NCBI GenBank assembly: GCA_024642295.1
Contig: JAHEBK010000009.1
Span: 1-15,715 of the forward strand
Length of the DNA: 15,715 bases
Direction of reading: 5' to 3'
From: Flavobacterium sp.
GTDB taxonomy: Bacteria > Bacteroidota > Bacteroidia > Flavobacteriales > Flavobacteriaceae
Made by a program: the position numbers and the translations under genes. Positions 1 to 15,715 of the stretch are shown here, in pieces (positions within the stretch are counted from its first letter, which is position 1; each line of letters starts with the position of its first letter). The notes below the pieces were generated by a model that was not told the DNA's origin, searched no databases, and saw nothing but the letters and a program-made list of their open reading frames with translations.

Positions 1-1515
1 AACCACAGCACAACCTGCAAATTTCTCCAATCCTTCCTCTAAAGCACGAAGGGTATTTACATCTAAATCATTGGTTGGCTCATCCAGTAGCAATACGTTT
101 CCTTCTTCTTTTAAAGTCATTGCAAGGTGCAAACGGTTACGTTCTCCTCCAGAAAGTGTTGCTACTTTTTTATTTTGATCACTTCCACCAAAGTTAAAAC
201 GACTCAAATAAGCTCTAGAATTTACTTGGCGTCCGCCCATCATAATCAATTCCTGACCATCACAGAAGTTTTCCCAAATTGATTTATTAGGGTCAATATT
301 AGAGTGTGCTTGATCGACGTAGGCAATTTTTACGGTATCTCCTACTGTAAATTCGCCGCTATCTGTTTCTTGCTCACCCATAATCATTCGGAAAATAGTT
401 GATTTACCCGCACCGTTTGGCCCGATAATCCCAACAATTCCTGCTTGTGGCAATGTAAAATTCAAGTTGTCATATAATAGTTTATCACCAAAAGCTTTCG
501 CAACAGCTTTGGACTCGATTACATTGGTTCCCAAACGAGGACCATTTGGAATATAAATTTCTAATTTTTCGTCCAGTTCTTTTTGGTCTTCGTTCAATAA
601 CTTATCATAGTTTTGCAAACGAGCTTTTTGTTTGGTTTGACGCCCTTTGGCTCCTTGACGAACCCACTCTAACTCACGTTCTAAGTTTTTTCTGCGTTTT
701 GAAGCTACTTTTTCCTCTTGTGCCAAACGACTTGATTTTTGGTCTAACCAAGAAGAATAATTTCCTTTCCACGGAATACCCTCACCTCTATCCAACTCTA
801 AAATCCATCCTGCTACATTATCCAAGAAGTATCTATCGTGCGTTACCGCAATTACTGTTCCTGCATATTGTGCCAAATGTTGTTCTAACCATAGAACACT
901 CTCTGCATCCAAGTGGTTGGTAGGCTCATCCAATAACAATACATCAGGTTGTTTCAACAACAAACGACATAAAGCCACACGACGACGCTCTCCTCCAGAA
1001 AGATTTTTAATAGGTGTATCGGCATCTGGCGTGCGAAGCGCATCCATTGCGATTTCTAGTTTGGTATCAATTTCCCAAGCTCCCAAGGCATCAATTTTAT
1101 CTTGCAAAGCCGCTTGACGGTCCATTAATTTATCCATTTTGTCTGGATCGGAATAGTTCTCTTCAAGACCAAACAAATCATTGATTTTGTTGTACTCGTC
1201 AAGAACTTGCATTGTTTCGGCAACTCCTTCACGAACAATTTCGATTACGGTTTTACTATCATCAAGAATAGGCTCTTGCTCTAAATACCCAACAGTATAT
1301 CCTGGAGCGAAAACAACATCCCCTTGATAGTTTTTATCTACTCCTGCAATAATCTTCAAAAGTGAAGATTTTCCCGAACCATTAAGTCCTAAAATACCAA
1401 TCTTAGCTCCGTAAAAGAAACTCAAATAAATATTTTTTAGTACTGGTTTATCTGCTCCTTGATAGGTTTTACTCAATTTTGACATTGAGAAAATTACTTT
1501 CTTATCGTCTGACAT
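1..1515 (-). CDS. ettA: Energy-dependent translational throttle protein EttA (ABC-F ATPase), C-terminus cut by window edge
   Basis: This is a cytoplasmic ABC-F protein with two ATP-binding cassettes and no membrane segment. EttA-type proteins bind the ribosomal E site and gate entry into elongation according to the ATP/ADP ratio. The 505 visible codons show Walker A GLNGSGKS at about residues 43-50, signature LSGGE at 172-176, Walker B VLLLDEPTN at 192-200, a charged inter-domain linker at about 255-320, a second Walker A GPNGAGKS at 365-372, a second LSGGE at 454-458 and a second Walker B LLLDEPTND at 475-483. Both catalytic glutamates are present. Family members are about 560 residues, so roughly 55-60 C-terminal residues lie outside the window. 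The ATG at 1513-1515 begins MSDDKKVIF, a normal start. Its leader is a GTTTNNN heptad array rather than a recognisable promoter. The subfamily assignment (EttA rather than Uup or another ABC-F) rests on overall length, linker and sequence similarity from memory. Confidence 0.95.
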   Translation of the reverse strand, partial: MSDDKKVIFSMSKLSKTYQGADKPVLKNIYLSFFYGAKIGILGLNGSGKSSLLKIIAGVDKNYQGDVVFAPGYTVGYLEQEPILDDSKTVIEIVREGVAETMQVLDEYNKINDLFGLEENYSDPDKMDKLMDRQAALQDKIDALGAWEIDTKLEIAMDALRTPDADTPIKNLSGGERRRVALCRLLLKQPDVLLLDEPTNHLDAESVLWLEQHLAQYAGTVIAVTHDRYFLDNVAGWILELDRGEGIPWKGNYSSWLDQKSSRLAQEEKVASKRRKNLERELEWVRQGAKGRQTKQKARLQNYDKLLNEDQKELDEKLEIYIPNGPRLGTNVIESKAVAKAFGDKLLYDNLNFTLPQAGIVGIIGPNGAGKSTIFRMIMGEQETDSGEFTVGDTVKIAYVDQAHSNIDPNKSIWENFCDGQELIMMGGRQVNSRAYLSRFNFGGSDQNKKVATLSGGERNRLHLAMTLKEEGNVLLLDEPTNDLDVNTLRALEEGLEKFAGCAVV

Positions 1516-1521
1516 ATTTTT

Positions 1522-1563
1522 GTTTATTGTTTATTGTTTGTGGTTTTTAGTTTGTGGTTTATG
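1522..1563 (+). repeat. GTTTNNN heptad array, left arm
   Basis: Six consecutive 7-base units all begin with GTTT: GTTTATT twice, then GTTTGTG, GTTTTTA, GTTTGTG and GTTTATG. Three more degenerate T/G-rich heptads follow to about 1584, where the four-helix-bundle frame ends. The phase is unbroken for 42 bases, which ordinary T/G richness would not readily produce. The array points inward, toward the pseudogene, and its first base lies 7 nt upstream of the ettA ATG, so it forms the whole near leader of ettA. The opposite arm is at 1968-1988. The same heptad type forms the ends of the element at 3233-3459. Confidence 0.75.
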
Positions 1564-1581
1564 TTTGTCGTTGGCTGTTGA

Positions 1582-1971
1582 TTACTTAAACTTAAGTCCT
1601 TTGATATCACAATTTCTTAAATAATTCATCATTGCTCCAATTTTATTTTTTTCTATTTCGGCCATTTCATTTAATTTCAAATGTTGTTCTTCTGAAATTA
1701 GTTTTTTATTAAAAGCTCGGTACGATTGCCATTTTACTTCACCAATTGAACCTTTGGCAATACTCAAAAATTGTATGAATTCTTTATTTCCGTTTCGTTC
1801 AAAACCTTCTGCAATATTATCCATCACTGAACCCGAACTTCTGTCAATTTGATCTTTTAACGAATAATTTGTTTTTAAAGTTGTTGTCTGAATCAATAAT
1901 TCAACATATTGTTAAATCTCTCTTGCTTTTTGCCAAATTTCTAAATCTTCAAATTTATTTATTTTCGCCAT
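1582..1971 (-). pseudogene. Four-helix-bundle (S23 rRNA intervening-sequence type) protein gene with an in-frame stop at codon 20
   Basis: From the ATG at 1969-1971 the frame reads MAKINKFEDLEIWQKAREI, a typical family N-terminus, and then hits TAA at 1912-1914. The same frame continues without a shift into [13 protein letters not shown] and on through the hallmark segments [18 protein letters not shown] and [16 protein letters not shown] to a stop at 1582-1584, 129 codons in all. Family members are usually about 115-130 residues, so a single substitution accounts for the break. A TTG at 1894-1896, six codons after the stop, could restart translation, but that product would lack helix 1. The segment [10 protein letters not shown] also looks unusual: from memory, relatives have a small and an aliphatic residue at the W and S positions. 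The biochemical function of this family is poorly known; relatives include Avd proteins of diversity-generating retroelements. No retroelement is present here. A sequencing error at 1914 is an alternative explanation. Confidence 0.8.
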
Positions 1972-1988
1972 AACAACAAACCAAAAAC
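1968..1988 (-). repeat. GTTTNNN heptad array, right arm
   Basis: Read on the minus strand, three heptads follow each other: GTTTTTG, GTTTGTT, GTTATGG. The last one contains the start codon of the four-helix-bundle pseudogene. The right end of the element at 3233-3459 ends in the same GTTATGG heptad after two GTTTNNN units, and its left end finishes with GTTATGA. The shared ending suggests a common terminal signal rather than chance. Confidence 0.6.
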
Positions 1989-2170
1989 TAAAGCCTTCCT
2001 TTCAACGAATTAAACACCCATGAAATTGCCAAAAATCCAACTCCAACAGCTGCAAATCCCCATCCTGCCACATCATCATATCGAAATGCTCCAAGGCCAA
2101 TCAATAAAAATCCCATTAACAGCATTATAAAAGTTGCCCAGCCTAAAATTGTGTTTTTGTTCATTCCCAT
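1988..2170 (-). CDS. Small two-helix membrane protein, CAL67264 family
   Basis: The 60-residue product is almost entirely membrane-embedded. A short polar start (MGMNKN) is followed by one hydrophobic helix at about residues 8-28 (WATFIMLLMGFLLIGLGAF), a short loop with RYDD, a second helix at about 35-53 (GWGFAAVGVGFLAISWVF), and a basic tail, NSLKGRL. I recognise this as the small flavobacterial membrane protein family that NCBI names after the locus CAL67264; its function is not known. It lies 44 nt downstream of holA on the same strand and is probably co-transcribed with it. Either ATG (2168-2170 or 2162-2164) could start translation. Its stop codon overlaps the right heptad arm of the four-helix-bundle cassette by one base. 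Confidence 0.8.
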   Translation of the reverse strand: MGMNKNTILGWATFIMLLMGFLLIGLGAFRYDDVAGWGFAAVGVGFLAISWVFNSLKGRL

Positions 2171-2214
2171 AGTTTGTGGTATTTTAAAAAGACAAATATC
2201 GTTAATTTATATGC

Positions 2215-3219
2215 CTAATTAAAAATTTGATACAGCATTTCTTTTAACAAATCGGCACTTGAAAGTGCATTTGCTCCTACTCCTTTGCTTTTTACATCAA
2301 TTTCTCTCAAAGCCGTTACAATTTGACTTACTTTTCGCATCGGGTAATTCTTTATTGCTACATCATATTCTTTCATGAAATACGGATTTACTCCTATCAA
2401 ACCGGCAACCTTTGTTGGATTTTTATCCTTGGCTCCGTGGTATTTTAATAATTGAACGAAAAAACCAAACACCAAACCCGTTGTCATCACCATGGGATTG
2501 TCTTTGGGATTTTGTGCAAAATTCTCCGCTATTTTATATGCTTTCAATTGGTTGCGCTCCCCTATTGCTTTTCGCAATTCAAATACATTAAAATCTTTGC
2601 TGAAACCAATATTTTCTTCGATATCATGAGCTGTTATCGTGCTTCCTTTAGGCAAAATAACTTGCAATTTTTCGAGTTCATTGTTGATTTTACTCAAATC
2701 GGTTCCCAAAAACTCAACCAACATAGCTGTCGCTTTAGGTTCAATATTGTATTTCTTTCCCGCTAAAACACGCTTAATCCAATCTCCTACTTGGTTTTCA
2801 TAAAGTTTTTTGCTTTCGTAAACCAATCCGTTTTTAGCGAGGGTTTTAGTTACTTTTTTGCGTTTGTCAAGCGTTTTGTATTTATAAGCCATCACCAAGA
2901 CTGTTGTAGGCATTGGATTTTCGGCATAAGATTCTAATTTTTCAATCGTACGGCTTAATTCTTGCGCTTCTTTTACAATAACCACTTGGCGATCCGCCAT
3001 CATAGGGTATCGTTTAGCAGTTGATACAATATCTTCAATTGTTACATCACGACCGTATAAAACCGTTTGATTAAATCCTTTTTCCTCTTCGGTCAAAATA
3101 GTATCTTCGATATAATCGGATAATTTATCAATATAATAGGACTCTTCCCCCATCAAAAAATAAATAGGTTTGATATTTCCCGCCTTTATATCATTAACAA
3201 TTTTTACTACTTCGTCCAT
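2215..3219 (-). CDS. holA: DNA polymerase III subunit delta
   Basis: Delta is the clamp-loader subunit that opens the beta sliding clamp, acting with tau/gamma and delta-prime in the cytoplasm. The 334-residue length fits the family. Typical features are the N-terminal PIYFLMGEESYYIDKLSDYI (about residues 18-37), then YPMMADRQVVIVKEAQ at about 71-86, which matches the conserved P-F/M-x-x-x-R-x-V-V-x-V block following the first strands, and a helical C-terminal collar domain containing DLSKINNELEKL. Delta keeps the AAA+ fold but does not hydrolyse ATP, and no intact Walker A is seen here. The start ATG at 3217-3219 gives MDEVVKIVNDI. The leader is a run of A residues followed by the heptad end of the 3233-3459 element. 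A TAnnTTTG match on the minus strand at 3459-3466 could serve as its promoter, giving a leader of over 200 nt, but this is speculative. Confidence 0.93.
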   Translation of the reverse strand: MDEVVKIVNDIKAGNIKPIYFLMGEESYYIDKLSDYIEDTILTEEEKGFNQTVLYGRDVTIEDIVSTAKRYPMMADRQVVIVKEAQELSRTIEKLESYAENPMPTTVLVMAYKYKTLDKRKKVTKTLAKNGLVYESKKLYENQVGDWIKRVLAGKKYNIEPKATAMLVEFLGTDLSKINNELEKLQVILPKGSTITAHDIEENIGFSKDFNVFELRKAIGERNQLKAYKIAENFAQNPKDNPMVMTTGLVFGFFVQLLKYHGAKDKNPTKVAGLIGVNPYFMKEYDVAIKNYPMRKVSQIVTALREIDVKSKGVGANALSSADLLKEMLYQIFN

Positions 3220-3232
3220 TTTTTTATTTCAG

Positions 3233-3459
3233 GTTTCAGGTTTCAAGTTATGAATAAGTCTAAATTAATCAGAAAAAGTTTGACACGAATTCCACAGATT
3301 TTCACAAAAGTGGAATCTTGAAAATGAAATTTCGCTAATTTCAACTGCCTAAAGCAGATTTCGTGAAATTATAGCATTATATGTTTCGTGTAAATTTGTG
3401 TAATTCGTGTAAAAAAATATTCAATCTGTGTAAGATTTCCATAACTTGAAACCTGAAAC
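3233..3459. mobile_element. 227-bp element with perfect 20-bp terminal inverted repeats (MITE/REP-like)
   Basis: Bases 3233-3252 and 3440-3459 are exact reverse complements over 20 bases. Each arm consists of the heptads GTTTCAG, GTTTCAA and GTTATG(A/G), and a further unit ATTTCAG precedes the left arm at 3226-3232. The interior holds words common in Bacteroidetes intergenic repeats: ACACGAATT at 3283-3291 with its complement AATTCGTGT at 3402-3410 (13 of 14 match over 3283-3296 and 3397-3410), CACAGATT at 3293-3300 with AATCTGTG at 3423-3430, and three GTGTAA boxes spaced 9-10 bases apart at 3388-3412. No gene of recognisable family lies inside. It fills nearly the whole 261-base gap between divergent holA and the HsdR-N gene. 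No target-site duplication is evident. Confidence 0.6.
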
Positions 3460-3476
3460 AAAATTAACTATTTTTG
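3446..3476 (+). promoter_or_regulatory. Candidate Bacteroidetes-type promoter for the HsdR-N / glycosyltransferase pair
   Basis: TATTTTTG at 3469-3476 fits the TAnnTTTG -7 consensus exactly. A TTG at 3446-3448, 20 bases upstream, fits the -33 box and lies inside the right terminal repeat of the neighbouring element. The -7 box ends only 4 bases before the ATG at 3481, so a transcript from it would be nearly leaderless. Such matches arise by chance in AT-rich DNA, so confidence is moderate. Confidence 0.4.
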
Positions 3477-3480
3477 CTCC

Positions 3481-3927
3481 ATGCAAAAGCTCAATTTTCC
3501 TTCTTATTCATTTCGATTCAAAAATAGCGAAAATAAAGTCTCTATCTTTGATGAAATCCGGAAAAAATTCATCATTCTTACTCCAGAAGAATGGGTCCGT
3601 CAGCATGTAGTACGTTTTTTATTGGAAGAAAAAAAGATTCCAAAATCACTTATCAATGTCGAAAAACTACTCAAAGTCAACGGATTAAATAAAAGATACG
3701 ACATAGTGGTTTTCAACTCTGATGGCTCTATCTATATATTAGTAGAATGCAAAGCCCCCGAAGTCAAAATAGCACAAGCGACTTTTGACCAAATTGCTCG
3801 TTATAATATGACGATGAATGCCACTCTTTTGATGGTAAGTAATGGTTTGAATCATTACTTTTGCCAAATGGATTATGAGAATGAAAAGTATCATTTTCTT
3901 CCAGATTTACCGCAATACAACAACTAA
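3481..3927 (+). CDS. Solitary type I restriction HsdR N-terminal domain protein (PD-(D/E)XK nuclease fold)
   Basis: The 148-residue protein consists only of the N-terminal nuclease domain of type I restriction R subunits. The visible active-site pattern is D74 in RYDIVVF, then E89-C90-K91 in LVECKAPE, followed by Q104 and Y108 in the QxxxY motif of HsdR-type nucleases. The PEEWVRQHVVRFLL segment (about residues 35-48) is the usual helix before the core. There is no helicase/translocase part and no HsdM or HsdS nearby, so this is not a restriction system. Stand-alone proteins of this type are common in Bacteroidetes and their role is not established; a repair or nucleic-acid processing nuclease is my inference from the intact catalytic residues. 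The stop is 3 nt before the next ATG, which indicates co-transcription with the glycosyltransferase. Confidence 0.85.
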   Translation: MQKLNFPSYSFRFKNSENKVSIFDEIRKKFIILTPEEWVRQHVVRFLLEEKKIPKSLINVEKLLKVNGLNKRYDIVVFNSDGSIYILVECKAPEVKIAQATFDQIARYNMTMNATLLMVSNGLNHYFCQMDYENEKYHFLPDLPQYNN

Positions 3928-3930
3928 AAA

Positions 3931-4923
3931 ATGAAAATAGCAGTCGTTATACTCAATTGGAACGGAGTCGCATTATTAAAAAAGTTTTTACCTTCGGTGG
4001 TGGAATTTTCACCAGAAGCCACAGTGTATGTCGCCGATAATGCCTCGACTGATGATTCTGTTGCTTTTGTGAGAAGCAATTTTCCAACAGTTCAAATTGT
4101 AGAAAATAAAGGAAATTTCGGCTTTGCCAAAGGATACAACGAAGCCTTACAACATATTGAAGCTGATATTTTTGCCCTAGTTAATTCAGATGTTGAAGTA
4201 ACCCAGAACTGGCTACAACCTATTATTAAAACCTTTGAAAACGAACCTAACACTGCCGTAATCCAACCAAAACTATTAGATTTTAAAAATAAAGCTTATT
4301 TTGAATATGCTGGTGCAGCAGGTGGATTCATTGACAAATATGGTTATCCTTATTGTCGTGGACGTATTTTTGATACTATTGAAAAAGACAACGGTCAATA
4401 TGATGACGAAATTGAAATTTTCTGGGCATCAGGTGCTTGTTTTTTTATCCGATCAGCTGTGTACCAAGAAATGAATGGTTTTGATGATGATTTTTTTGCT
4501 CACCAAGAAGAAATTGATTTGTGTTGGCGTATTATTAATAAGGGCTACACTATTAAGTACAATTCGAATTCTGTAGTCTATCATGTTGGAGGTGCAACTT
4601 TAGATCAAGGAAATCCTAAAAAAACATATTTAAATTTTAGAAACTCATTGTTGATGTTGGTAAAAAACGTACCCAAAAACTCGTTGTTTTTCATTTTATT
4701 TTTTCGCCTGATATTAGATGGGATTGCAGGATTACGATTTATTTCGCAAGGAAAATGGAGTCATTTTACAGCAATTTTAAAAGCTCATTTTTCTTTTTAC
4801 TGCTCAATACCAAATACATACAAAAAAAGAGTTCGTTTCCAAACTACAAAATACTATCAAAGTACTAGTATAATAAACCAATACTACATTAATAATGGCA
4901 AGGTATTTGTTAACAAAATTTAA
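3931..4923 (+). CDS. Family 2 glycosyltransferase (rhamnosyltransferase-like)
   Basis: This is an inverting GT-A fold transferase that moves a sugar from a nucleotide donor to a cell-surface acceptor at the cytoplasmic face of the membrane. The N-terminus MKIAVVILNWNG is the classic GT2 start. It is followed by VADNASTDDS (about 34-43), NKGNFGFAKGYNEAL (59-73), and the metal-binding NSDVEV with D87 in the DxD position. FWASGACFFIRS (164-175) and HQEEIDLCWRI (191-201) form the acceptor-side catalytic region found in WbbL-like enzymes. A hydrophobic stretch at about 251-268 (SLFFILFFRLILDGIAGL) probably anchors the basic C-terminal tail to the membrane. The sugar and acceptor cannot be read from sequence. 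Its only neighbours of possible surface function are the OmpA lipoprotein and the barrel protein downstream, and there is no O-antigen cluster. Confidence 0.9.
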   Translation: MKIAVVILNWNGVALLKKFLPSVVEFSPEATVYVADNASTDDSVAFVRSNFPTVQIVENKGNFGFAKGYNEALQHIEADIFALVNSDVEVTQNWLQPIIKTFENEPNTAVIQPKLLDFKNKAYFEYAGAAGGFIDKYGYPYCRGRIFDTIEKDNGQYDDEIEIFWASGACFFIRSAVYQEMNGFDDDFFAHQEEIDLCWRIINKGYTIKYNSNSVVYHVGGATLDQGNPKKTYLNFRNSLLMLVKNVPKNSLFFILFFRLILDGIAGLRFISQGKWSHFTAILKAHFSFYCSIPNTYKKRVRFQTTKYYQSTSIINQYYINNGKVFVNKI

Positions 4924-4958
4924 CAGTACTTTATAAGTATATTTTAAACATTAAAAAC

Positions 4959-4966
4959 TAAATTTG
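4959..4966 (+). promoter_or_regulatory. Candidate -7 promoter box for the OmpA-family gene
   Basis: TAAATTTG matches TAnnTTTG exactly and sits 24 bases before the ATG at 4991, implying a leader of about 20 bases. No clear -33 TTG is found about 20 bases upstream. The 67-base gap after the glycosyltransferase also favours a separate promoter. Confidence 0.4.
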
Positions 4967-4990
4967 TACCCAAACTTAATTATTGAATTT

Positions 4991-5824
4991 ATGAAAAAAA
5001 TCGTAGTTGCCTTATCAGTATTAACTTTATTAGCTTCATGCGTTTCAAAAAAGAAATACCAAGAATTAGAAGCTAGAAATAAAGAAACACAAGACTTATT
5101 AAACAGTTGTACAGTAAAACTTAATTCTTGTTTGGAAGAAAAAGCAGGACTTCAAGCCTCTGTAAATGGTTTAAAAGAGTACAACCAAAACTTAATTACA
5201 ACTTCTAAGGATTTAACAATGTTAACTTCAAAAGGAGCTGAAAACCTAGAAAAATCTTTAGAAAGCTTAAAAGAAAAAGATTTAAAAATTAGCAGATTAC
5301 AAGATGCATTGACACGTAAAGACAGCGTAACTCTTGCTCTTGTTTCAAGCCTGAAAAGTTCTGTTGGAATTTCAGATCCAGATATCGAAATCAACGTTGA
5401 AAAAGGAGTGGTTTACATTTCTATCGCTGATAAATTGTTATTCAAAAGTGGTAGCTATGATGTAACATCACAAGCAAAAAGTGTTTTAGCTAAAGTTGCC
5501 AAAGTTGTTAATGACAAACCAGACTTTGAATGTATGGTTGAGGGACATACAGATAACGTTCCTTACCTTGGAAACGGAGTATTATTAGACAACTGGGATT
5601 TAAGTGTAAAACGTTCTACATCTATCATCCGTGTTTTAACAGGTCAACTAGGTGTTAAACCAGAGCAATTAGTTGCTGCAGGTAGAAGTTCATACGTACC
5701 TTTAGTATCTAACGATTCTGCAGAGAACAGAGCTCGTAACCGTAGAACTCGTATCATTGTATTGCCAAAAATTGATCAATTCTACGACATGATCGAAAAA
5801 GAAATGAAAAAACAAAAACAATAA
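4991..5824 (+). CDS. OmpA-family peptidoglycan-binding lipoprotein
   Basis: The 277-residue product has a lipoprotein signal peptide, MKKIVVALSVLTLLASC, with lipobox LASC and lipidated Cys at residue 17. Residues about 22-112 are heptad-rich and charged, probably a coiled coil spanning the periplasm. The C-terminal OmpA domain (about 135-270) carries GHTDN at 185-189 and NRARNRRTRI at 246-255, including the Asp and Arg that bind diaminopimelate in peptidoglycan. The likely role is tethering the outer membrane to the cell wall, as in Pal or OmpA. I chose the ATG at 4991. A TTG at 4964 in the same frame adds nine residues that would spoil the n-region of the signal peptide, and it lies within the candidate -7 box. 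A strong hairpin terminator follows the gene, so it ends its transcription unit. Confidence 0.92.
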   Translation: MKKIVVALSVLTLLASCVSKKKYQELEARNKETQDLLNSCTVKLNSCLEEKAGLQASVNGLKEYNQNLITTSKDLTMLTSKGAENLEKSLESLKEKDLKISRLQDALTRKDSVTLALVSSLKSSVGISDPDIEINVEKGVVYISIADKLLFKSGSYDVTSQAKSVLAKVAKVVNDKPDFECMVEGHTDNVPYLGNGVLLDNWDLSVKRSTSIIRVLTGQLGVKPEQLVAAGRSSYVPLVSNDSAENRARNRRTRIIVLPKIDQFYDMIEKEMKKQKQ

Positions 5825-5846
5825 TTTGCAATTTGTTTTCCAATAT

Positions 5847-5878
5847 AAAACGTCTTGAGCAATCAGGACGTTTTTTTT
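5847..5878 (+). terminator. Rho-independent terminator after the OmpA-family gene
   Basis: AAAACGTC, a T, and TGA (5847-5858) pair with TCA, a G, and GACGTTTT (5863-5874). The stem is 12 bp with one T-G wobble, the loop is GCAA (a GNRA-type tetraloop), and eight T residues run from 5871 to 5878. It lies 22 bases past the stop codon. Confidence 0.9.
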
Positions 5879-5984
5879 GTTTCAATTTTCCGCTATTTAA
5901 ATAGTGTAATAATATATTCCCAAAATACCTTTATGATAATTTGGTTTTTAATGTACATTAGTAGTATTAAATACAGCCCCAAAA

Positions 5985-8813
5985 TTGAACTTATTTTCCA
6001 AAATACTTCTGTTACTACTTTTTTTATTCATTTCAGCAAAACAATATGGCCAACACCATTCCCAGTTGTTTGTTGAAGTAAATATGGAAGATAAAATTTT
6101 AAATATTCAGCAAAAAATTACTTACCACAATCAATCTACAGATTCCATCGGTACGATTGTTTTAAACGATTGGAATAACGCTTTTTCAAATGTAAATTCT
6201 CCTCTTGCCAAACGTTTTTCAGATGAGTTTTACAGAGGATTTCATTTAGCCAAAGAAGAAGAACGCGGCAGCACTCAAAACATTACCATTATTGACCAAA
6301 ATAAATTATTTCTTATATGGCAACGCACTACAGACAACCCAGATGTCATTAGTATTAAATTAAGAGAGAAACTGGCTCCAAACGAAAAAATAGCCCTACA
6401 ACTCACTTACATTGTAAAAGTTCCAAGTGATCGTTTTACTAGATTTGGATACAATGATTTGGATGGAATGAATTTAAGAAATTGGTATCTTACTCCTGCC
6501 CGTTATCAAAATCATCAATTCATTATCTATAACAATAATAACCTAGATGATATTGTTAACGCCATTTGTGATTACAACATTGAATTAAAAATCCCAAAAA
6601 AATATTCAATCGCTACCGACTTAAATAGTACTATTTCTACTCAAACTCAAACATCTTCAATTTATCAACTTCATGGTACAAAAAGAACTGATTTTAGTTT
6701 GATTTTAGAACCTATCTCTACATTTGAAAATTTTCAAATCGAAGATTTAAATGTTGTAACCAACCTAAAAGATACTAAATTATCATCCGTACAAAAAGCT
6801 ATAATTGTTGATTGTGTCGTAAAATACACCACTAATATAATTGGAAAATATCCATTTGATAAAATAATAGTTTCACAAACCGATTATGAAAAAAATCCCT
6901 TTTATGGATTAAACCAGTTACCTTCTTTTATAAGTCCATTTTCAGACACTTTTGTCTATGAAATTACGTTTTTAAAAACTTTTTTAAATGTTTTTTTAAA
7001 AAACAGTCTCGCATTAGACCAAAGAAAGGATGCTTGGATTCACGATGCAATTCAAGTATATACTATGATGAAATATATAGAAGTCAACCATCCAAATAGT
7101 AAAATGATGGGGAGCGCTTCAAGTTTCAAGCTATTAAAAAGTTTTAATTTAACCAATCTAAATTTCAACGAGCAGTATAGTTATTTCTATATGCTAATGG
7201 CTAGAAAAAATCTTGACCAACCACTGAGTCTTCCCAAAAACGAATTAATTAAATTCAATGAACAAATTGCCAGTAAATATCGGGCTGGATTAAGCTTGCG
7301 CTATCTTGATAATTATCTCGAAAATAATGTGGTTGTAAACAGTATCCACGAATTATACACTACTAAACAAGGTCTTGAAGTAAAAAACAATGATTTTGAA
7401 ACGATAGTAAAGAAAAATACAAATCAAAACATTGACTGGTTCTTTAATACCATTATTAATTCCAGAAAAGCGATTGACTATAAATTTTCAGACGTATTAA
7501 AAACCAAGGACAGTATTACTTTTAACATAAAAAACAAGACAGGGGTTATAGTTCCAATTCCTATTTATGGTATAAAAAATGGAGCAATTGTTTTTAAAAA
7601 ATGGTTAAACCCTAAAAACAATGACAGTCTTTATACTATTGAACGTAATAATGCTGATAAAATAGTTTTAAATTATAAAAACGAAGTTCCTGAATACAAC
7701 CTTCGAAACAATTGGAAATCATTAAGAGGTTTTTTTCCCAACAATCGTCCCGTAAAATTCGTATTCATGAAAGACCTAGAAGATCCTTATTACAATCAGG
7801 TTTTATATGTCCCAACCTTAGAATACAACCTTTATGACGGATTTATTCCAGGAATACGACTTCATAACAAAACAATTCTAGACAAACCATTCACTTTTGA
7901 TGTAACACCAGCTTATTCTATTGGAGCCAAAACATTTTCAGGATCAGGTTCATTAGTGGTTAATCAAAATTATAGAGAAAGTGCACTGTTTAATGTTCGC
8001 TACGCTCTTTCAGGCTCCTATTTCCATTATGCACCTGACGCTACTTATCTAAAATTCAACCCAAACGTACAAATTAAATTTAGAGACAATGATTTTAGAG
8101 ACAATCGAAAAGAACTTATTTATATACGCCAAGTGATTGTAAATAGAGAAATAAGTAAAATTATTCCAACTGACTTTTCAGAAAACTATTCTGTATTTAA
8201 TGCTAAATATTACAACACAAAAACTGAAGTTACAAATCACTTTAGTTTTATGTCTGAAATTCAAATTTCTAATAAATTCAGTAAAGCAATAACAGAACTA
8301 TCCTATCGCAAATTATTCGAAAACAATCATCAAGTCAACCTTCGCTTTTACGCTGGAGCCTTTTTACACAATAAAACAAATACTGATTTTTTTAGTTTTT
8401 CACTGGACAAACCAACAGATTATTTGTTTGATTACAATTACTATGGTAGATCTGAAAACTCTGGTTTTTTCAGCCAACAATTAATCATTGCCGAAGGTGG
8501 TTTCAAATCCAAATTAAATATGCCTTTTGCCAATCAATGGATTACTACTTTGAATGGCGGATACAATATTTGGAATTGGGTTGAAGTGTATGGAGATATT
8601 GGCTTTTTAAAAAACAAATACCACAACGAACGCTTTTTATTCGATAGTGGAATTCGTCTGAATTTAGTCACTGATTATTTTGAAGTTTACTTTCCGGTCT
8701 ATTCTTCAAATGGTTGGGAAATCAGTCAAAACAATTACAACGAAAAAATCAGATTTGTCATCACTTTATCACCAAAAATCATCACCAATCTATTCAATAG
8801 AAAATGGTTTTAA
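5985..8813 (+). CDS. Secreted M1/gluzincin peptidase-like protein without zinc site, fused to an outer-membrane beta-barrel
   Basis: The 942-residue protein starts with a signal peptide (about residues 1-22, MNLFSKILLLLLFLFISA). Residues about 25-250 resemble the N-terminal beta domain of M1 aminopeptidases. Residues about 260-490 resemble the catalytic domain: FDKIIVSQTDYEKNPFYGLNQL (291-312) corresponds to the strand leading to the GxMEN loop. There is no HExxH anywhere. The region where it is expected (about 325-340, EITFLKTFLNVF) has no histidine, and the later W-x-N-E-G zinc-ligand motif reads WIHDA (351-355). From about 600 to the end the sequence alternates polar and aromatic residues in beta-hairpin fashion and closes on Phe942, as in outer-membrane barrels. 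The TTG start at 5985 is required, since the next in-frame ATG (6084) would remove the signal peptide. Similar Flavobacteriia proteins are annotated as gluzincin-family metallopeptidases; catalytic activity is unlikely here. A surface binding or transport-related role is only a guess. Confidence 0.75.
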   Translation: MNLFSKILLLLLFLFISAKQYGQHHSQLFVEVNMEDKILNIQQKITYHNQSTDSIGTIVLNDWNNAFSNVNSPLAKRFSDEFYRGFHLAKEEERGSTQNITIIDQNKLFLIWQRTTDNPDVISIKLREKLAPNEKIALQLTYIVKVPSDRFTRFGYNDLDGMNLRNWYLTPARYQNHQFIIYNNNNLDDIVNAICDYNIELKIPKKYSIATDLNSTISTQTQTSSIYQLHGTKRTDFSLILEPISTFENFQIEDLNVVTNLKDTKLSSVQKAIIVDCVVKYTTNIIGKYPFDKIIVSQTDYEKNPFYGLNQLPSFISPFSDTFVYEITFLKTFLNVFLKNSLALDQRKDAWIHDAIQVYTMMKYIEVNHPNSKMMGSASSFKLLKSFNLTNLNFNEQYSYFYMLMARKNLDQPLSLPKNELIKFNEQIASKYRAGLSLRYLDNYLENNVVVNSIHELYTTKQGLEVKNNDFETIVKKNTNQNIDWFFNTIINSRKAIDYKFSDVLKTKDSITFNIKNKTGVIVPIPIYGIKNGAIVFKKWLNPKNNDSLYTIERNNADKIVLNYKNEVPEYNLRNNWKSLRGFFPNNRPVKFVFMKDLEDPYYNQVLYVPTLEYNLYDGFIPGIRLHNKTILDKPFTFDVTPAYSIGAKTFSGSGSLVVNQNYRESALFNVRYALSGSYFHYAPDATYLKFNPNVQIKFRDNDFRDNRKELIYIRQVIVNREISKIIPTDFSENYSVFNAKYYNTKTEVTNHFSFMSEIQISNKFSKAITELSYRKLFENNHQVNLRFYAGAFLHNKTNTDFFSFSLDKPTDYLFDYNYYGRSENSGFFSQQLIIAEGGFKSKLNMPFANQWITTLNGGYNIWNWVEVYGDIGFLKNKYHNERFLFDSGIRLNLVTDYFEVYFPVYSSNGWEISQNNYNEKIRFVITLSPKIITNLFNRKWF

Positions 8814-8926
8814 ACCAATGTTTTTATTACATAATAAATACCTATTCTTTATTAAAAAAATATATAAAACAAAAAACACTTGATTTTATGTAAAATATCT
8901 AATGAATTTTAAACTTTTTTTTTCAT

Positions 8927-8965
8927 TAATGCATTATGAAAATAGCCAGTTTTTAAGTAAATTTG
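8927..8965 (+). promoter_or_regulatory. Candidate promoter region of the E1 dehydrogenase gene with a 10-bp palindrome
   Basis: TAAATTTG at 8958-8965 matches the TAnnTTTG -7 box, 27 bases before the ATG at 8993. TAATGCATTA at 8927-8936 is a perfect 10-base palindrome lying where the -33 region would be, which is a possible operator position. The 179-base gap (8814-8992) is otherwise AT-rich with no other recognisable signal, and no clear hairpin terminates the barrel gene. Confidence 0.35.
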
Positions 8966-8992
8966 CATCACCAAGTTACACCTTCATAAACT

Positions 8993-11401
8993 ATGATAAA
9001 AGAAAAAAACAATACTGCATTAACATTTGAAGATTTCAAAACTGAAGTATTAAATGATTACACCATTGCCATAACAAGCAGGGAATGTAGTTTGTTAGGA
9101 AGAAAAGAAGTTTTAACAGGTAAAGCTAAGTTTGGAATTTTTGGTGATGGTAAAGAATTACCTCAAATTGCCATGGCAAAATTCTTCAAAAATGGTGATT
9201 TTAGGTCTGGATATTACCGTGACCAAACCTTTATGATGGCTATTGGCGAATTAACTGTCGAACAACTATTTGCTGGATTATATGGTAATACAGACATAAA
9301 AGAAGAACCGATGTCGGCGGGAAGACAAATGGGAGGTCATTTTGTTACACATAGTTTGAACGAAGATGGTTCTTGGAAAAATTTGGCACAGCAAAAAAAC
9401 TCAAGTGCTGACATCTCTCCTACAGCCGCACAAATGCCGCGTCTTCTTGGACTCGCTCAAGCTTCAAAAATATATAGAAACATTATCAATATTCCTAATC
9501 AAGCTAATTTTTCAGATAAAGGAAATGAAGTCGCTTGGGGGACAATTGGAAATGCAAGTACGTCAGAAGGAGTTTTTTTTGAAACTATAAATGCCGCAGG
9601 AGTATTACAAGTACCCATGGTAATAAGTATTTGGGATGATGAATATGGAATTTCAGTTCATGCCAAACACCAAACAACCAAAGAAAATATTTCTGAAATA
9701 TTAAAAGGCTTCCAAAAAGAAACTAACACTAATGGTCTTGAACTAATAAAAGTTAAAGGTTGGGATTATTCAGACCTTATTGCTGCTTATGAAAAAGCTG
9801 GTAATATTGCCCGAGAAAAACACATTCCCGTACTAATCCATGTTGAAGAACTAACACAACCTCAAGGACATTCTAGTTCAGGTTCACATGAAAGATATAA
9901 AAGTAAAGAACGTCTGGATTGGGAAAAGGAATTTGATTGCATCAGACAGATGCGACTATGGATGATTGCCATTAATATTGCTTCACCTGAAGAACTTGAC
10001 GAAATTGATGCTAAAGCAAAAAAAATAGTTCTTGAAGCCAAGAAAAAAGCATGGATTACTTTTATCACTCCTATTATCAATGAACAAAAGGAACTAGTTG
10101 CATTACTAGAAAAAATAGCTCCTTCCACCAAAAATATAGAGGAAATTCTTGTGCAAGCCAAAAGGCTAAAAAGCATCAAAGAACCTTTGAAAAAGGAAAT
10201 TTTAGTTGCCGCTCGTAAAAGCTTGCGACTGATTGAAAATAGTCCTGAAAAAACAGAACTTGTCAATTGGATTGCTTCTTTTACAAGAAAATATCAAGAT
10301 GCTTTTAGTAGAAATTTATATTCAGAATCTGAATTTAATGTATTTTCTGCCAAAGAAATAGCAGCTGAATATGAAGAAAATGCAAAACCTATTGCTGACG
10401 GTAGAATGATTATAAGAGATAATTTTGACGCTCTCTTTACCAAATATCCTGAAGCATTAATTTTTGGTGAAGATTCAGGAAATATTGGAGATGTGAATCA
10501 AGGTTTAGAAGGACTTCAAGAAAAATTTGGTGAATTGCGTGTAGCTGATGTTGGCATCCGCGAAGCTACTATTATAGGTCAAGGAATTGGAATGGCATTA
10601 AGAGGATTAAAGCCAATTGCTGAAATACAATATCTAGATTATTTGATCTATGCTATACAAATCATGAGTGATGATTTAGCTTCTTTACAATATAGAACAG
10701 CCGGAAGACAAAAAGCACCTTTAATTATTCGTACACGTGGACATCGATTAGAAGGTATTTGGCATTCTGGATCGCCTATGGGAATGATTATCAATGCCAT
10801 TAGAGGTATTCATGTATTGGTTCCTAGAAACATGACCAAAGCAGCTGGATTTTACAACTCACTTATGGAATGTGACGAACCAGCGGTTGTTATCGAATGT
10901 TTGAATGGTTACAGATTAAAAGAGAAAACACCTATTAATTTTGGCGCATTCAAAACTCCAATAGGTGTTGTTGAAACTATCAAAGACGGAACAGACATCA
11001 CTCTTGTTTCTTATGGCTCAACCTTACGATTAGTTGAACAAGCAGCAATAGAATTGATGGAAACAGGAATCAATTGTGAAGTTATTGACATTCAGTCATT
11101 AATCCCTTTTGATATTAATCATGATTTGGTTAAAAGTGTGATAAAAACCAATCGACTTTTGGTTATTGACGAAGACGTTCCAGGAGGTGCATCTGCTTAT
11201 ATATTACAACAAATTATAGAAGAACAAAATGGCTATCAGTATCTTGATAGTAAACCACAAACTTTAACTGCCAAAGCACATAGACCTGCTTATGGTACTG
11301 ATGGAGATTATTTTTCAAAGCCTTCTATTGAAGATATTTACGAAAAAGTTTACGCCATGATGAATGAAGTAAATCCATCTAAATATCCTAGCTTATATTA
11401 A
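8993..11401 (+). CDS. Fused alpha/beta E1 component of a branched-chain-type 2-oxoacid dehydrogenase
   Basis: This thiamine-diphosphate enzyme decarboxylates branched-chain 2-oxoacids (from Val, Leu, Ile) and passes the acyl group to lipoyl-E2, feeding iso-fatty acid synthesis. The 802 residues contain the alpha half (about 20-300), a helical linker (about 300-465) and the beta half (about 466-802). The alpha half shows SAGRQMGGHF (108-117), the cofactor region GTIGNASTSEG (183-193) and WDDEYG (214-219), and QGHSSSGSHERY (291-302). The beta half shows GEDSGNIGDV (492-501), VADVGIREATIIGQGIGMA (517-535), HSGSPMG (591-597) and DEDVPGGASAY (726-736). Canonical E1 alpha has GDG and NN in the two cofactor positions; here they are GNA and DD. 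Fusion of the halves is usual in Bacteroidetes. No E2 or E3 gene is adjacent. The substrate (branched-chain versus pyruvate) is inferred from overall resemblance. Confidence 0.88.
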   Translation: MIKEKNNTALTFEDFKTEVLNDYTIAITSRECSLLGRKEVLTGKAKFGIFGDGKELPQIAMAKFFKNGDFRSGYYRDQTFMMAIGELTVEQLFAGLYGNTDIKEEPMSAGRQMGGHFVTHSLNEDGSWKNLAQQKNSSADISPTAAQMPRLLGLAQASKIYRNIINIPNQANFSDKGNEVAWGTIGNASTSEGVFFETINAAGVLQVPMVISIWDDEYGISVHAKHQTTKENISEILKGFQKETNTNGLELIKVKGWDYSDLIAAYEKAGNIAREKHIPVLIHVEELTQPQGHSSSGSHERYKSKERLDWEKEFDCIRQMRLWMIAINIASPEELDEIDAKAKKIVLEAKKKAWITFITPIINEQKELVALLEKIAPSTKNIEEILVQAKRLKSIKEPLKKEILVAARKSLRLIENSPEKTELVNWIASFTRKYQDAFSRNLYSESEFNVFSAKEIAAEYEENAKPIADGRMIIRDNFDALFTKYPEALIFGEDSGNIGDVNQGLEGLQEKFGELRVADVGIREATIIGQGIGMALRGLKPIAEIQYLDYLIYAIQIMSDDLASLQYRTAGRQKAPLIIRTRGHRLEGIWHSGSPMGMIINAIRGIHVLVPRNMTKAAGFYNSLMECDEPAVVIECLNGYRLKEKTPINFGAFKTPIGVVETIKDGTDITLVSYGSTLRLVEQAAIELMETGINCEVIDIQSLIPFDINHDLVKSVIKTNRLLVIDEDVPGGASAYILQQIIEEQNGYQYLDSKPQTLTAKAHRPAYGTDGDYFSKPSIEDIYEKVYAMMNEVNPSKYPSLY

Positions 11402-11483
11402 ACAAAAGAAACCATTAAACAGCTACATCTCAAATTAAGTATACTGTTTTATATTTCAAATTTTCACAAACAAACAAAACCCA

Positions 11484-12221
11484 TTGAAAACTAAAGCCTT
11501 ATTCAACTGGAGCAGTGGTAAAGACTCTGCCCTAGCTTTATATAAAACATTACAAAATCCCGAATTAGAAATTTGCTGTTTACTTACAAGTGTAAACCAA
11601 CAATTTCAACGTATTTCAATGCATGGTGTACGCGTCGAATTATTACTCCAACAAGCAAAAAGCATTGGATTACCTCTTGAAATTATGAAAATTCCAGAAA
11701 TGCCAACTATGGAAGTTTATGAGGAAGTCATGTCGAATATGTTGACTAAACTTAAAGACCAAGGAATTACACATTCTATTTTTGGAGATATTTTCTTAGA
11801 AGATTTACGCAAATACCGCGAAGATAAATTGGCAACAATGGATTTCAAAGGGGTGTTCCCATTATGGAAAATCCCAACAACCGATTTGATTCAAGAATTT
11901 ATCGAATTAGGATTCAAAACCATTGTAGTTTGTGTCAATGAAAAATATCTTGACAAAAGTTTTGTTGGTCGTGTAATTGACCAAGATTTTATCGATGATT
12001 TGCCTGAAGGAGTTGATGTCTGTGGCGAAAACGGTGAATTTCACACCTTTACTTTTGATGGGCCAATTTTCTCTAAACCTATTGCTTTTGAAATTGGAGA
12101 AGTAGTATATCGTAAATATGAGAAACCAAAAGAAGCTAAACCATCCAATACCGCTTGTGATACCAACGATACAACAGCTTATGATTTTGGATTTTGGTAT
12201 TGTGATTTGATAAAAAAATAA
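11484..12221 (+). CDS. Dph6-like ATP pyrophosphatase (diphthine--ammonia ligase family)
   Basis: The 245-residue protein belongs to the MJ0570/Dph6 branch of N-type ATP pyrophosphatases, which adenylate a carboxylate and amidate it. The PP-loop SSGKDS at residues 10-15 binds ATP pyrophosphate. FGDIFLEDLRKYRED (100-114) and GENGEFHTF (181-189) are the family signatures. Eukaryotes and archaea use Dph6 for the last step of diphthamide synthesis on EF-2. Bacteria lack diphthamide, so the substrate here is unknown. The start is TTG at 11484: no in-frame ATG exists upstream, and the next ATG (11619) lies well past the PP-loop. The 82-base gap after the E1 gene has only a weak hairpin, so read-through from E1 is possible. 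The stop codon lies one base from the stop of the convergent DUF1697 gene. Confidence 0.85.
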   Translation: MKTKALFNWSSGKDSALALYKTLQNPELEICCLLTSVNQQFQRISMHGVRVELLLQQAKSIGLPLEIMKIPEMPTMEVYEEVMSNMLTKLKDQGITHSIFGDIFLEDLRKYREDKLATMDFKGVFPLWKIPTTDLIQEFIELGFKTIVVCVNEKYLDKSFVGRVIDQDFIDDLPEGVDVCGENGEFHTFTFDGPIFSKPIAFEIGEVVYRKYEKPKEAKPSNTACDTNDTTAYDFGFWYCDLIKK

Positions 12222-12251
12222 ACTACTTTTCATTATACATTTTAAGTAGTT
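12212..12251 (-). terminator. Candidate terminator of the DUF1697 gene, overlapping the end of the Dph6-like gene
   Basis: AACTACTT (12221-12228) and AAGTAGTT (12244-12251) form an 8-bp stem with a 15-base loop. Read on the minus strand, the stem is followed by TATTTTTTTA (12211-12220), a usable T-tract. On the plus strand no T-tract follows. The stem contains the last codons and stop of the DUF1697 gene, and the T-tract is the tail of the opposite gene. The long loop lowers confidence. Confidence 0.4.
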
Positions 12252-12774
12252 GAGTTACAGTATTCCAATTGCGAATTGTAGCCGTGACATTTAACTTCTT
12301 TTCAATATATTTTTGATCAAAACGAGTTTTCCCTGCTCCGACAGCATACTTGATAAATATACGATTACCATCTATTCTGGCTTCATCAGGCTTAAATTGA
12401 CTTATTTTTAAATTATTGATATTTTCCGCTTTTAATTCGACAGAAACAAAAGCAACATACAGTTTTTTAATATCCGTATCTTTTTCTTTTAAGAAAGGAT
12501 TATTAACAAAACAAGCTTCTAAATCTGCTTTATTAATCACAATCACAGGAACTTCATGACCAAATGCTTTGAAGATTTCTTGTTTGATTTTAAAACCTAC
12601 TGCTGCTGTACTATCTTCTTTGGTATCTACAAAAACATTTCCGGATTGAATATAGGTTTGTACATTAGTAAAACCAATTCCTTCCAAAGTTGTTTTTAAA
12701 ACCTCCATTTTCATCATATTGTGGCCTGAAACATTGATACCACGTAGTAAAGCAAGATGCGTTGTCATTGTCAT
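12223..12774 (-). CDS. DUF1697 domain-containing protein
   Basis: The 183-residue soluble protein shows the DUF1697 pattern: HLALLRGINVSG at residues 6-17, TNVQTYIQSGNVFVDT at about 36-51, and a C-terminal RNWNTVTQLL at about 168-177. No signal peptide or membrane helix is present. The family is widespread in bacteria and its function is not known. Two start codons, ATG at 12772-12774 and 12766-12768, are equally plausible. The gene is transcribed convergently to the Dph6-like gene, with one base between their stop codons, and divergently from recG across a 151-base gap that holds promoters for both. Confidence 0.88.
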   Translation of the reverse strand: MTMTTHLALLRGINVSGHNMMKMEVLKTTLEGIGFTNVQTYIQSGNVFVDTKEDSTAAVGFKIKQEIFKAFGHEVPVIVINKADLEACFVNNPFLKEKDTDIKKLYVAFVSVELKAENINNLKISQFKPDEARIDGNRIFIKYAVGAGKTRFDQKYIEKKLNVTATIRNWNTVTQLLKMYNEK

Positions 12775-12784
12775 TTTTTATTTT

Positions 12785-12815
12785 CAAAGATATTGGTTTG
12801 AATAAGAATTAACAA
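12785..12815 (-). promoter_or_regulatory. Bacteroidetes-type promoter for the DUF1697 gene
   Basis: On the minus strand TATCTTTG (12792-12785) matches the TAnnTTTG -7 box exactly, with a TTG -33 box at 12815-12813 separated by 20 bases. The start codon follows 10 bases after the -7 box. This is the best-spaced promoter candidate in the window. Confidence 0.5.
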
Positions 12816-12891
12816 TAGTAATTTTAAACAACCCTTTTATTGATTGAATATCGAAGTATGTTTACTGTTTCCAAATTTAAAAACAAAAAAC

Positions 12892-12899
12892 TATCTTCG
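12892..12899 (+). promoter_or_regulatory. Candidate -7 promoter box for recG
   Basis: TATCTTCG differs from TAnnTTTG at one base and lies 26 bases before the recG ATG. A convincing -33 box is not visible, although a TTG-like TTT stretch occurs near 12867-12870. Confidence 0.3.
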
Positions 12900-12925
12900 C
12901 TTTAGAAAGAAATTTAAGATTATAA

Positions 12926-15031: not shown

Positions 15032-15059
15032 ATACTTCTTTCCCTTATTTTTAAACGGC

Positions 15060-15079
15060 AAACTGCACCAGTTTTTTTT
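15060..15079 (+). terminator. Rho-independent terminator after recG
   Basis: AAACTG (15060-15065) and CAGTTT (15069-15074) form a 6-bp stem with a 3-base loop CAC, and eight T residues run from 15072 to 15079. It lies 28 bases past the recG stop. The stem is short, so the terminator may be of moderate strength. Confidence 0.65.
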
Positions 15080-15139
15080 AAAACACTTTTAAAAAAATAT
15101 CTTTATGATTAAATGAATTTATAGATAATCCTAAACCTT

Positions 15140-15147
15140 TATATTTG
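15140..15147 (+). promoter_or_regulatory. Candidate -7 promoter box for the bestrophin-family gene
   Basis: TATATTTG matches TAnnTTTG exactly and ends 12 bases before the ATG at 15160. The recG terminator upstream means the gene needs its own promoter, which supports this site. No TTG -33 box stands out. Confidence 0.4.
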
Positions 15148-15159
15148 TATAAAAAAACC

Positions 15160-15715
15160 ATGATAAGCTACAATCCTAAAGACTGGATCATATTCATATT
15201 CCGTTTTCACAAAGCTGACACGTTTCGAAAATTGTTTCCCTTGATGTTATTGATTGGTTTTTACTCAGCGGCTGTAGGATATCTCGAAATCGAATATTTG
15301 AATTTACCTGATGACAGTCATGTCAAAAACATTTCGATGATGCACGGAATGTTGGGATTTGTAATTTCATTATTGTTAGTATTTAGAACAAATACTGCTT
15401 ATGACCGTTGGTGGGAAGGTCGAAAATTATGGGGTGCTTTAGTTAATAACAGTCGAAATCTTGCAATGAAACTAAATGCAATTTTAGAAGATGAAAAAGA
15501 CAAAGTATTTTTTAGAAAAATGATTCCAAGTTATGCTTCAATATTAAACAAACATTTGAAAGACGAAGAAACTGGAAAACAATTATCCGAAGAACTTATA
15601 TTCCCTTCTGAATACCATACCCACCGTCCCAATCAAGTAGCCAAAATGATGTTTCAAAAAATAAACGATCTTTATAAAAAACAAAAAATTACAGGGGATC
15701 AACTCATCATAATAA
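15160..15715 (+). CDS. Bestrophin-family ion channel, N-terminal part
   Basis: Bacterial bestrophins are inner-membrane pentameric channels, known to conduct cations (the Klebsiella homologue) while animal ones pass chloride. The 185 visible codons start MISYNPKDWIIFIFRFHKAD, followed by a first membrane helix at about 24-44 (KLFPLMLLIGFYSAAVGYL) and a second at about 61-77 leading into the family signature FRTNTAYDRWWEGRKLWG (75-92). The following NNSRNLA segment is also typical. The rest of the visible part is cytoplasmic helix. Full-length relatives are about 290-300 residues, so roughly the last third, including the later membrane helices, lies beyond the window. It is separated from recG by a terminator and has its own candidate -7 box. 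Confidence 0.9.
   Translation, partial: MISYNPKDWIIFIFRFHKADTFRKLFPLMLLIGFYSAAVGYLEIEYLNLPDDSHVKNISMMHGMLGFVISLLLVFRTNTAYDRWWEGRKLWGALVNNSRNLAMKLNAILEDEKDKVFFRKMIPSYASILNKHLKDEETGKQLSEELIFPSEYHTHRPNQVAKMMFQKINDLYKKQKITGDQLIII

Follow-up and report, generated by a model that had tools for sequence, protein, structure and literature searches.

Four-helix-bundle genes between inward-facing heptad arrays whose unit varies with the protein subfamily

Introduction

A stretch of 15,715 nucleotides from Flavobacterium sp. (assembly GCA_024642295.1, contig JAHEBK010000009.1, positions 1 to 15,715; hereafter the window) contains a gene for a four-helix-bundle (4HB) protein that stands between two arrays of the heptad GTTTNNN facing each other (segment 1) and, beyond two further genes, a second inward-facing pair with no gene between its arms (segment 2). 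An earlier note had read the two as a gene-carrying and an empty form of one element. The locus raises the question of whether such arrays belong to 4HB genes in general and, if so, what holds array and gene together. We report here that genes for Avd-fold 4HB proteins (PF05635, 'S23/IVP') commonly stand between two arrays that face inward and are built of a degenerate unit, 7 or sometimes 8 bases long, and that closely related proteins have related units, those of distant proteins being mostly unrelated. Among open PubMed Central (PMC) papers, as judged from titles, opening lines of abstracts and selected passages, none was found that links 4HB/IVP genes to heptad arrays in general. The Coxiella element, whose S23p open reading frame is preceded by a tandem of two or three GACAGAT heptamers, is a precedent in a single element.

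A seven-base period beside 4HB genes

Two sets of loci were used. The genus set comprises 95 4HB loci from the genus of the window, the better-scoring part of the matches listed, with one reverse-frame match dropped before autocorrelation; L013, one of six 4HB loci in the window's own genome, was missed by the seed profile (L and G numbers are our handles for loci and genomes). The named set is the best 80 of 571 relatives confirmed in a scan of named genomes with a fragment of XCC0516, and it spans many phyla, one contig being labelled as an ANME-1 archaeon. In the 120 nucleotides (nt) beside the gene, autocorrelation in the genus set peaks at periods 7 and 8 on both sides, with values of 0.051 and 0.041 at period 7 (7 and 6 standard errors), and the peak is gone at 120–240 nt from the gene. 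The named set gives 0.099 on both sides (7 and 10 standard errors), and 105 other intergenic stretches give a weak 0.018 (2 standard errors).

In a shuffle test, period 7 reaches p ≤ 0.01 in 99 of 154 named-set flanks and in 63 of 183 genus-set flanks; runs of N or short flanks removed 6 of 160 named-set flanks here and 4 of the 80 loci in the arm comparison below. Period 8 reaches this level in 44 of 183 genus flanks and 17 named-set flanks, the remaining periods between 5 and 12 in 1–9 flanks, and control stretches 260–400 nt away in 5 of 334 with both sets pooled. That period 7 might be a general intergenic property was considered and rejected: in these loci, the flanks of genes other than 4HB, from both sets, show it in 53 of 457 cases, well below the 4HB flanks, as against 13–14 of 457 at periods 6, 8 and 9, and this background plausibly stems from the dispersed arrays described below. 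Detected arms adjoin the gene on both sides, with median gaps of 5–22 nt, in many phyla. The association of GTTTNNN heptads with a 4HB gene, noticed at one locus, is thus strong and general.

Inverted arms and a unit that follows the protein

The two arms of a locus carry the same unit, inverted. In the named set (n = 76), the cosine of the left arm with the reverse-complemented right arm is 0.237, against 0.050 on the same strand and 0.020 with other loci; in the genus set (n = 93, the broken or cut loci L012 and L014 having been excluded from unit comparison), the corresponding values are 0.228, 0.100 and 0.027. The G-rich strand faces inward in 156 of 175 detected arms. Read by eye among the loci listed, the genus units differ between subfamilies and include TTAGA-type, TAGTNAT, GTATTAA, GTCGTGA, GGTTGAT, AAAGTCG, GTTTAAA and others.

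We measured unit similarity on enriched 5-mers in the genus set, over 4278 pairs, 321 of them with a shared neighbour gene. For pairs without a shared neighbour gene, unit similarity stays at 0.02–0.03 below a protein ratio of 0.65 and rises to 0.141 at ratios of 0.65–0.7 (n = 17) and 0.284 at 0.7–0.8 (n = 21), and the Mantel correlation of unit with protein similarity (r = 0.179) was reached by 0 of 999 permutations. An earlier measure, shared 6-mers, was swamped by common A+T-rich words, its Mantel value being reached by 40 of 999 permutations; since enriched 5-mers superseded it, the stronger covariation result is that of the second measure tried. GTTT, which the earlier note took as the terminal code, turns out to be one among many units, each protein subfamily having, as a general rule, a unit of its own.

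Two segments, two sub-codes

In segment 1 both arms are present and face inward as first read, and a run of more than three GTTTNNN heptads occurred in 0 of 2000 two-base-block shuffles of the window. The innermost GTTATGG (1968–1974) is there as well, with the correction that the 4HB reading frame begins inside it. The gene assigned to this segment does match PF05635, but its frame is broken by an in-frame TAA at codon 20. The 4HB frame is all that lies between the arms, with no nuclease, recombinase or reverse transcriptase encoded there. Segment 2 is a gene-less inward pair between holA and HSDR_N whose ends share the 20-mer GTTTCAGGTTTCAAGTTATG, inverted. Runs of at least two heptads occurred in 1636 of 2000 shuffles, and the window has several further such runs; because two-heptad runs are this common by chance, segment 2 stands on its symmetry and not on array length. 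Nested in it at about 3282–3310 and 3383–3434 (by eye) is a further inverted pair, of the ACACGAATT type, whose period is longer, and these inner arms look like the repeat type that flanks GxxExxY genes.

The two segments spell the variable triplet differently. In segment 1 its middle base is T in 8 of 8 units (ATT, ATT, GTG, TTA, GTG, GTC, TTG, GTT), and in segment 2 it is A in 4 of 4 (CAG, CAA, CAG, CAA). The same split runs through the subfamily of the window gene (FEDLEIW), of which 30 loci were read, with clades set by protein score to the copy in genome G051, not by a tree, and with five loci that have no GTTT heptads left out of the counts. The middle base is T in 55 of 58 units of the window clade (8 loci, 3 sites) and A in 106 of 108 units of the sister clade (17 loci, several at a shared site), a split that is complete by locus (8 of 8 against 17 of 17). 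Segment 1 thus has the T sub-code and segment 2 the A sub-code, each matching a different 4HB clade. A single code common to both segments is therefore rejected, and the two segments are sisters rather than alternative forms of a single element. Seven other array loci of the window genome have a middle A in 31 of 33 units, and the window's own copy is the only FEDLEIW member found in this 69%-complete assembly.

Sites and occupancy in relatives

Thirty relatives were fetched by holA, and both border genes of segment 1 are present in 23 loci. At this site the 4HB element is found in 2 (the window and G051), a gap of 27–86 bp in 20 and 561 bp of other content in 1, so that the presence/absence variation predicted for the locus, as expected of a transposon or a miniature inverted-repeat transposable element (MITE), does exist. 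The site is empty in the closest relative by holA (G025), and G003 also has a 4HB element there, with a stop at another codon. As a separate observation, L216 and L217 hold two 4HB copies at the same site with stops at different codons, the copy in G051 being intact.

The window clade occupies a second site in G046, G006 and G063, between two genes read as folE and cysS. It occupies a third in G068 and G071, between HSDR_N (recognised by eye) and holA. The holA–HSDR_N gap, examined in 30 loci and readable in 23, is seen in three states: gene-carrying (G068, G071), with a gene-less pair, and enlarged (the window, G025). Gene-carrying and gene-less forms do therefore occur, at the same site in different species; what did not survive is the view that the window's two segments are such forms of one element. 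Nor is segment 2 a young MITE, since 14 of the 23 loci, the window included, have an inward GTTT pair in this position. The 115 nt upstream of holA fold into structures more stable than those of their mononucleotide shuffles, with a median z of −2.6 in 30 loci (from +1.2 to −9.2). Judging from these site patterns, the element may move.

Two further observations concern this gap. The enlarged gap measures 261 bp in the window and 247 bp in G025 (L016), and in the window ACACGAATT-type arms lie inside the GTTTCAG hairpin. In L024, an ATAGATA-type heptad-like array takes the hairpin's place and looks by eye like the unit found with a different 4HB subfamily (L121, L131).

Dispersed gene-less copies

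In 101 genomes of the genus we counted 3076 arrays of four GTTT heptads, and 456 when the pattern was reversed. Pairs facing inward number 1416, against 242 for the reversed pattern and 226 outward pairs (overlapping matches counted), and inward pairs outnumber outward ones in 71 genomes, are fewer in 17 and equal in 13. Array orientation is thus far from random, and dispersed inverted doublets of the kind that define REPIN/RAYT systems (hairpin-forming repeats with a repeat-associated tyrosine transposase) are present. Among the matches listed, outward pairs resemble ordinary terminators by eye. Genomes with the 4HB subfamily (41) have a median of 24 GTTT arrays, those without (60) a median of 5, and the partial rank correlation given genome size is 0.375.

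Other units behave in the same manner. The unit flanking the Xanthomonas 4HB gene is the published orphan repeat GGGAATC, whose arrays number 327, 145 and 54 in three genomes with that 4HB unit (two Xanthomonas and one Dokdonella), and 0 in a Saprospiraceae genome whose 4HB unit differs. GGGTGTC arrays number 43 in the owner genome and 0–5 in 11 others. GTGACGA arrays number 29 in the owner, 32 in a genome with a similar unit and 0 in 8 genomes, the two exceptions being G114, with 45, and G112, whose 23 equal its reversed control (23). In five genomes, neighbouring arrays of opposite orientation face inward 18 times and outward 0 times; one of the five has neither kind, and one was read from a single contig among the matches listed.

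Exact pairing of the two arms as a constraint was considered and found unsupported: over 45 parsed hairpins, some of them doubtful, the variable triplets in the two arms of gene-less pairs agree in register in 23 of 108 comparisons, against a mean of 19.2 in shuffled order. The arms of one hairpin do share a triplet vocabulary (0.21, against 0.08 with other hairpins). Since the triplets are unmatched in register, recognition of the unit is favoured over exact pairing, and selection looks to act on the repeated core.

The protein

The window gene belongs to PF05635 (100.4 bits, cut-off 33.8), and its open part matches TIGR02436 (82.1, cut-off 24). PF05635 is the sole Pfam match of that open part, which does not encode an IS200-like tyrosine transposase. 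The intact relative in G051, modelled with 60 aligned relatives, reached a predicted local distance difference test score (pLDDT) of 97.0; a single-sequence model (pLDDT 46.6) was not used. The model's best PDB matches, 2gsc (XCC0516, E 2.4e-5) and 2rld, give it the XCC0516-like four-helix fold, and the next are Avd (4dwl_D, E 0.038, target template-modelling score 0.87) and a chain of the ribonucleoprotein of a diversity-generating retroelement (DGR; 8ub7_E, E 0.24). The resemblance of PF05635 to Avd is already in print (PMC10053308). Because the crystal entries 2gsc and 2rld have five chains each, and a homopentameric torus is stated for the 2gsc protein (PMC4990558, citing Lin 2006), a five-chain ring that reads successive units is plausible. 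The protein is under purifying selection (dN/dS, the ratio of nonsynonymous to synonymous substitution, 0.02–0.31 in 21 pairs, many with dS > 1), and PF05635 genes are found in at least 60 of 61 genomes searched in the genus. The XCC0516 fragment had no match in a search of phages.

Relation to known systems

Several known systems resemble this one in part. In REPIN/RAYT systems (PMC3116915), a protein gene is likewise flanked by its own short repeat, which is dispersed as inverted doublets forming hairpins, and several repeat 'flavours' each lie beside their own protein gene, with co-evolution proposed. RAYT is, however, an IS200-like tyrosine transposase with a palindromic repeat, whereas here the protein is a four-helix bundle in which no catalytic domain is recognised, and the repeats are arrays of a degenerate seven-base unit. 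Intervening sequences (IVS) of 23S and 16S rRNA with an S23p/IVP open reading frame (PMC4990558, PMC11270868) place the same family inside inverted repeats, and their terminal stem is cut by RNase III (PMC4990558). They sit in rRNA genes, whereas the window element lies between protein genes, and is thus not an rRNA intervening sequence, and its unit varies by subfamily. The predicted fold is like that of Avd of DGRs; here, in contrast, a search confined to the element finds neither a reverse transcriptase nor template and variable repeats between the arms, and Avd is needed for retrohoming, to which no known step of 4HB elements corresponds. An Rfam scan of window positions 1–4000 gave no match.

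The heptamers themselves have been described as orphans, GGGNATC in Xanthomonas and Nostoc (PMC4692102) and TAACTGA in Beggiatoaceae, cyanobacteria and Bacteroidetes (PMC4679880). Like the arrays described here, they are mostly intergenic and form convergent pairs (70 and 75 in two Xanthomonas strains), and in Xanthomonas the orphan unit is also that of the arrays flanking the 4HB gene. These papers propose G-quadruplexes or binding by S1, Csp or CsrA. Term counts find 'four helix' in neither paper, no '23S' in PMC4692102 and no 'S23' or 'intervening sequence' in PMC4679880.

What joins array and gene

The association, the inward layout, the dependence of the unit on the subfamily and the dispersed gene-less copies are solid as results of the tools used. 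Recognition of the array by the 4HB protein would be the simplest cause of the covariation of unit and protein. We favour, as the probable explanation, that each 4HB protein recognises its own array, so that element and hairpins act like a REPIN/RAYT pair without a transposase. Under this explanation each protein would read the repeated unit that belongs to it, most likely on single strands of nucleic acid, with consecutive units taken by several subunits; recognition would join array and gene into one co-evolving element and would spread or maintain gene-less hairpins in trans, and the unit would change along with its protein, on the model of REPIN/RAYT pairs. More tentatively, as a proposal that we would not yet call probable, a protein-to-repeat code may extend across many bacterial phyla and one contig labelled archaeal, in which pentameric Avd-fold rings read arrays with a subfamily-specific seven-base spelling and thereby keep up and multiply an element that has no transposase, together with its gene-less hairpins.

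A number of observations weigh against recognition and movement. At period 7, 55 of 154 named-set and 120 of 183 genus-set flanks miss p ≤ 0.01, and 5 of the 30 FEDLEIW loci are without GTTT heptads (L223, L224, L226, L237, L240). Most high-similarity pairs are at orthologous sites and most share a neighbour gene, and the weakest part of the covariation test is that few are left once the shared-neighbour pairs are removed; among those left, the closest (n = 3) have a unit similarity of 0.574, equalled on the opposite strand (0.597). Like units also occur in distant proteins (L170 and L132, cosine 0.88 at a protein ratio of 0.22). The correlation of subfamily presence with GTTT arrays across genomes ignores kinship, GTTT hairpins also occur in genomes with no detected cognate gene, and G114 has 45 GTGACGA arrays although the 4HB gene read there carries another unit. 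A fine-scale empty site was sought in plasmids, and no filled and empty pair of near-identical strains was obtained. In the published Xcc/Xac comparison, 83% of repeats lie in the same gene context, which points to persistence rather than frequent movement.

One alternative is a regulator without mobility. TRAP and CsrA offer comparisons for a protein that binds arrays in transcripts, and a 4HB ring might in the same way bind heptad arrays, autoregulate its own mRNA and control genes next to arrays, the arrays being dispersed through ordinary duplication and selection. The GTTT pair kept at one site upstream of holA fits this reading, as do the Xanthomonas repeats, which lie in conserved places and are mostly transcribed (Rehm 2015), and the post-transcriptional role argued for TAACTGA through a binding protein not yet known (MacGregor 2015). 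We nevertheless regard it as rather unlikely, given a gene framed on both sides, one clade with its arms at three sites, patchy site occupancy and hundreds of array matches in some genomes.

Hitchhiking, in which another factor spreads the hairpins, these are favoured landing places for 4HB genes and the correlation reflects joint inheritance, would account for hairpins without a detected cognate gene, for the weight of the shared-neighbour pairs and for the 4HB element in G068 and G071 where others have a hairpin only; we give it little credence, as unit similarity persists without a shared neighbour gene and splits by clade, and in many phyla the arms that were detected flank the gene at short distance left and right. 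That the arms merely pair in the transcript for cutting by RNase III, the protein being incidental, is suggested by the shared protein family and cut stem of rRNA intervening sequences and by the stability upstream of holA; it appears very improbable with arms of gene-less pairs that are not complementary in register at variable positions, an element outside rRNA and a protein under purifying selection.

Such a protein-to-repeat code, if true, would make the Xanthomonas GGGAATC repeats, the cyanobacterial heptamers, possibly Beggiatoa TAACTGA, and the rRNA intervening sequences faces of one system. PF05635 proteins are common. A structure of one (2gsc) has been available since 2006, the literature still describes the family's function as uncharacterised (PMC4990558, PMC11270868), and the heptamer repeats have been described separately. 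Pairing the two provides a candidate ligand for the protein and a candidate reader for the repeats, so that both become testable, with another clade's unit as a built-in specificity control. If the code is real, it would offer a natural series of protein variants paired with recognition units and would add a type of mobile element without a known enzyme.

Features of the locus and a second family

On the minus strand lie holA, the CAL67264-family gene, the 4HB gene and the ABC-F ATPase gene, with HSDR_N divergent. The ATPase is putatively ettA-like.

Table 1. Features of the window around the two segments.
Position	Strand	Feature	Basis
1..1515	-	ABC-F ATPase; other border of the segment 1 site; runs off the window	translated, matched in relatives
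1522..1563	+	arm past the 4HB stop codon: six GTTTNNN heptads, inward-facing	direct reading
1582..1971	-	4HB gene (PF05635 / TIGR02436), pseudogene, TAA at codon 20	profile matches
1968..1988	-	arm at the 4HB start: GTTTTTG GTTTGTT GTTATGG; last heptad holds the start codon	direct reading
1988..2170	-	CAL67264-family membrane protein; one border of the segment 1 element site	family search
2215..3219	-	holA, DNA polymerase III delta	family search
3233..3252	+	outer arm of segment 2: GTTTCAG GTTTCAA GTTATG	direct reading
3282..3310	.	inner arm of segment 2, ACACGAATT-type repeats, GxxExxY-like code, nested insert	by eye
3383..3434	.	inner arm, inverted partner of 3282–3310	by eye
3440..3459	-	outer arm of segment 2, identical 20-mer, inverted	direct reading
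3481..3927	+	HSDR_N_2 protein, border of the gene-less segment	family search

The GxxExxY family (PF13366) was read in the genus of the window, with 24 genes parsed from 30 loci (L245–L274) and 23 flanks used. Its flanks show period 9 (0.032, 3 standard errors, both sides) and period 10, with period 7 absent (−0.021 and −0.012) and period 2 also visible upstream (0.034). Flank units such as GCAAAGNNC, CACAGAG and ACACGGATTT are inverted in layout by eye. GxxExxY genes with a period of 9–10 bases would be a second, parallel system of the same layout with another period.

4HB genes on plasmids and beside cas genes

Among 24 plasmid records with a match, eight cyanobacterial-plasmid 4HB genes were read; seven have inverted heptads by eye, two of the seven being near-copies. 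Near-identical 4HB elements lie on two Calothrix brevissima plasmids, beside a gene annotated as phage integrase family (L313, L314). Two cyanobacterial 4HB genes framed by heptad arrays lie between cas6 and cas4 (L310, L317); a link between 23S_rRNA_IVP and cas loci has been reported (PMC3936711), and it may reflect insertion of the element, not a CRISPR role. A Riemerella record labelled as a plasmid (L318) may be chromosomal sequence, since it has lepA beside an iron-sulfur assembly gene and a 4HB gene.

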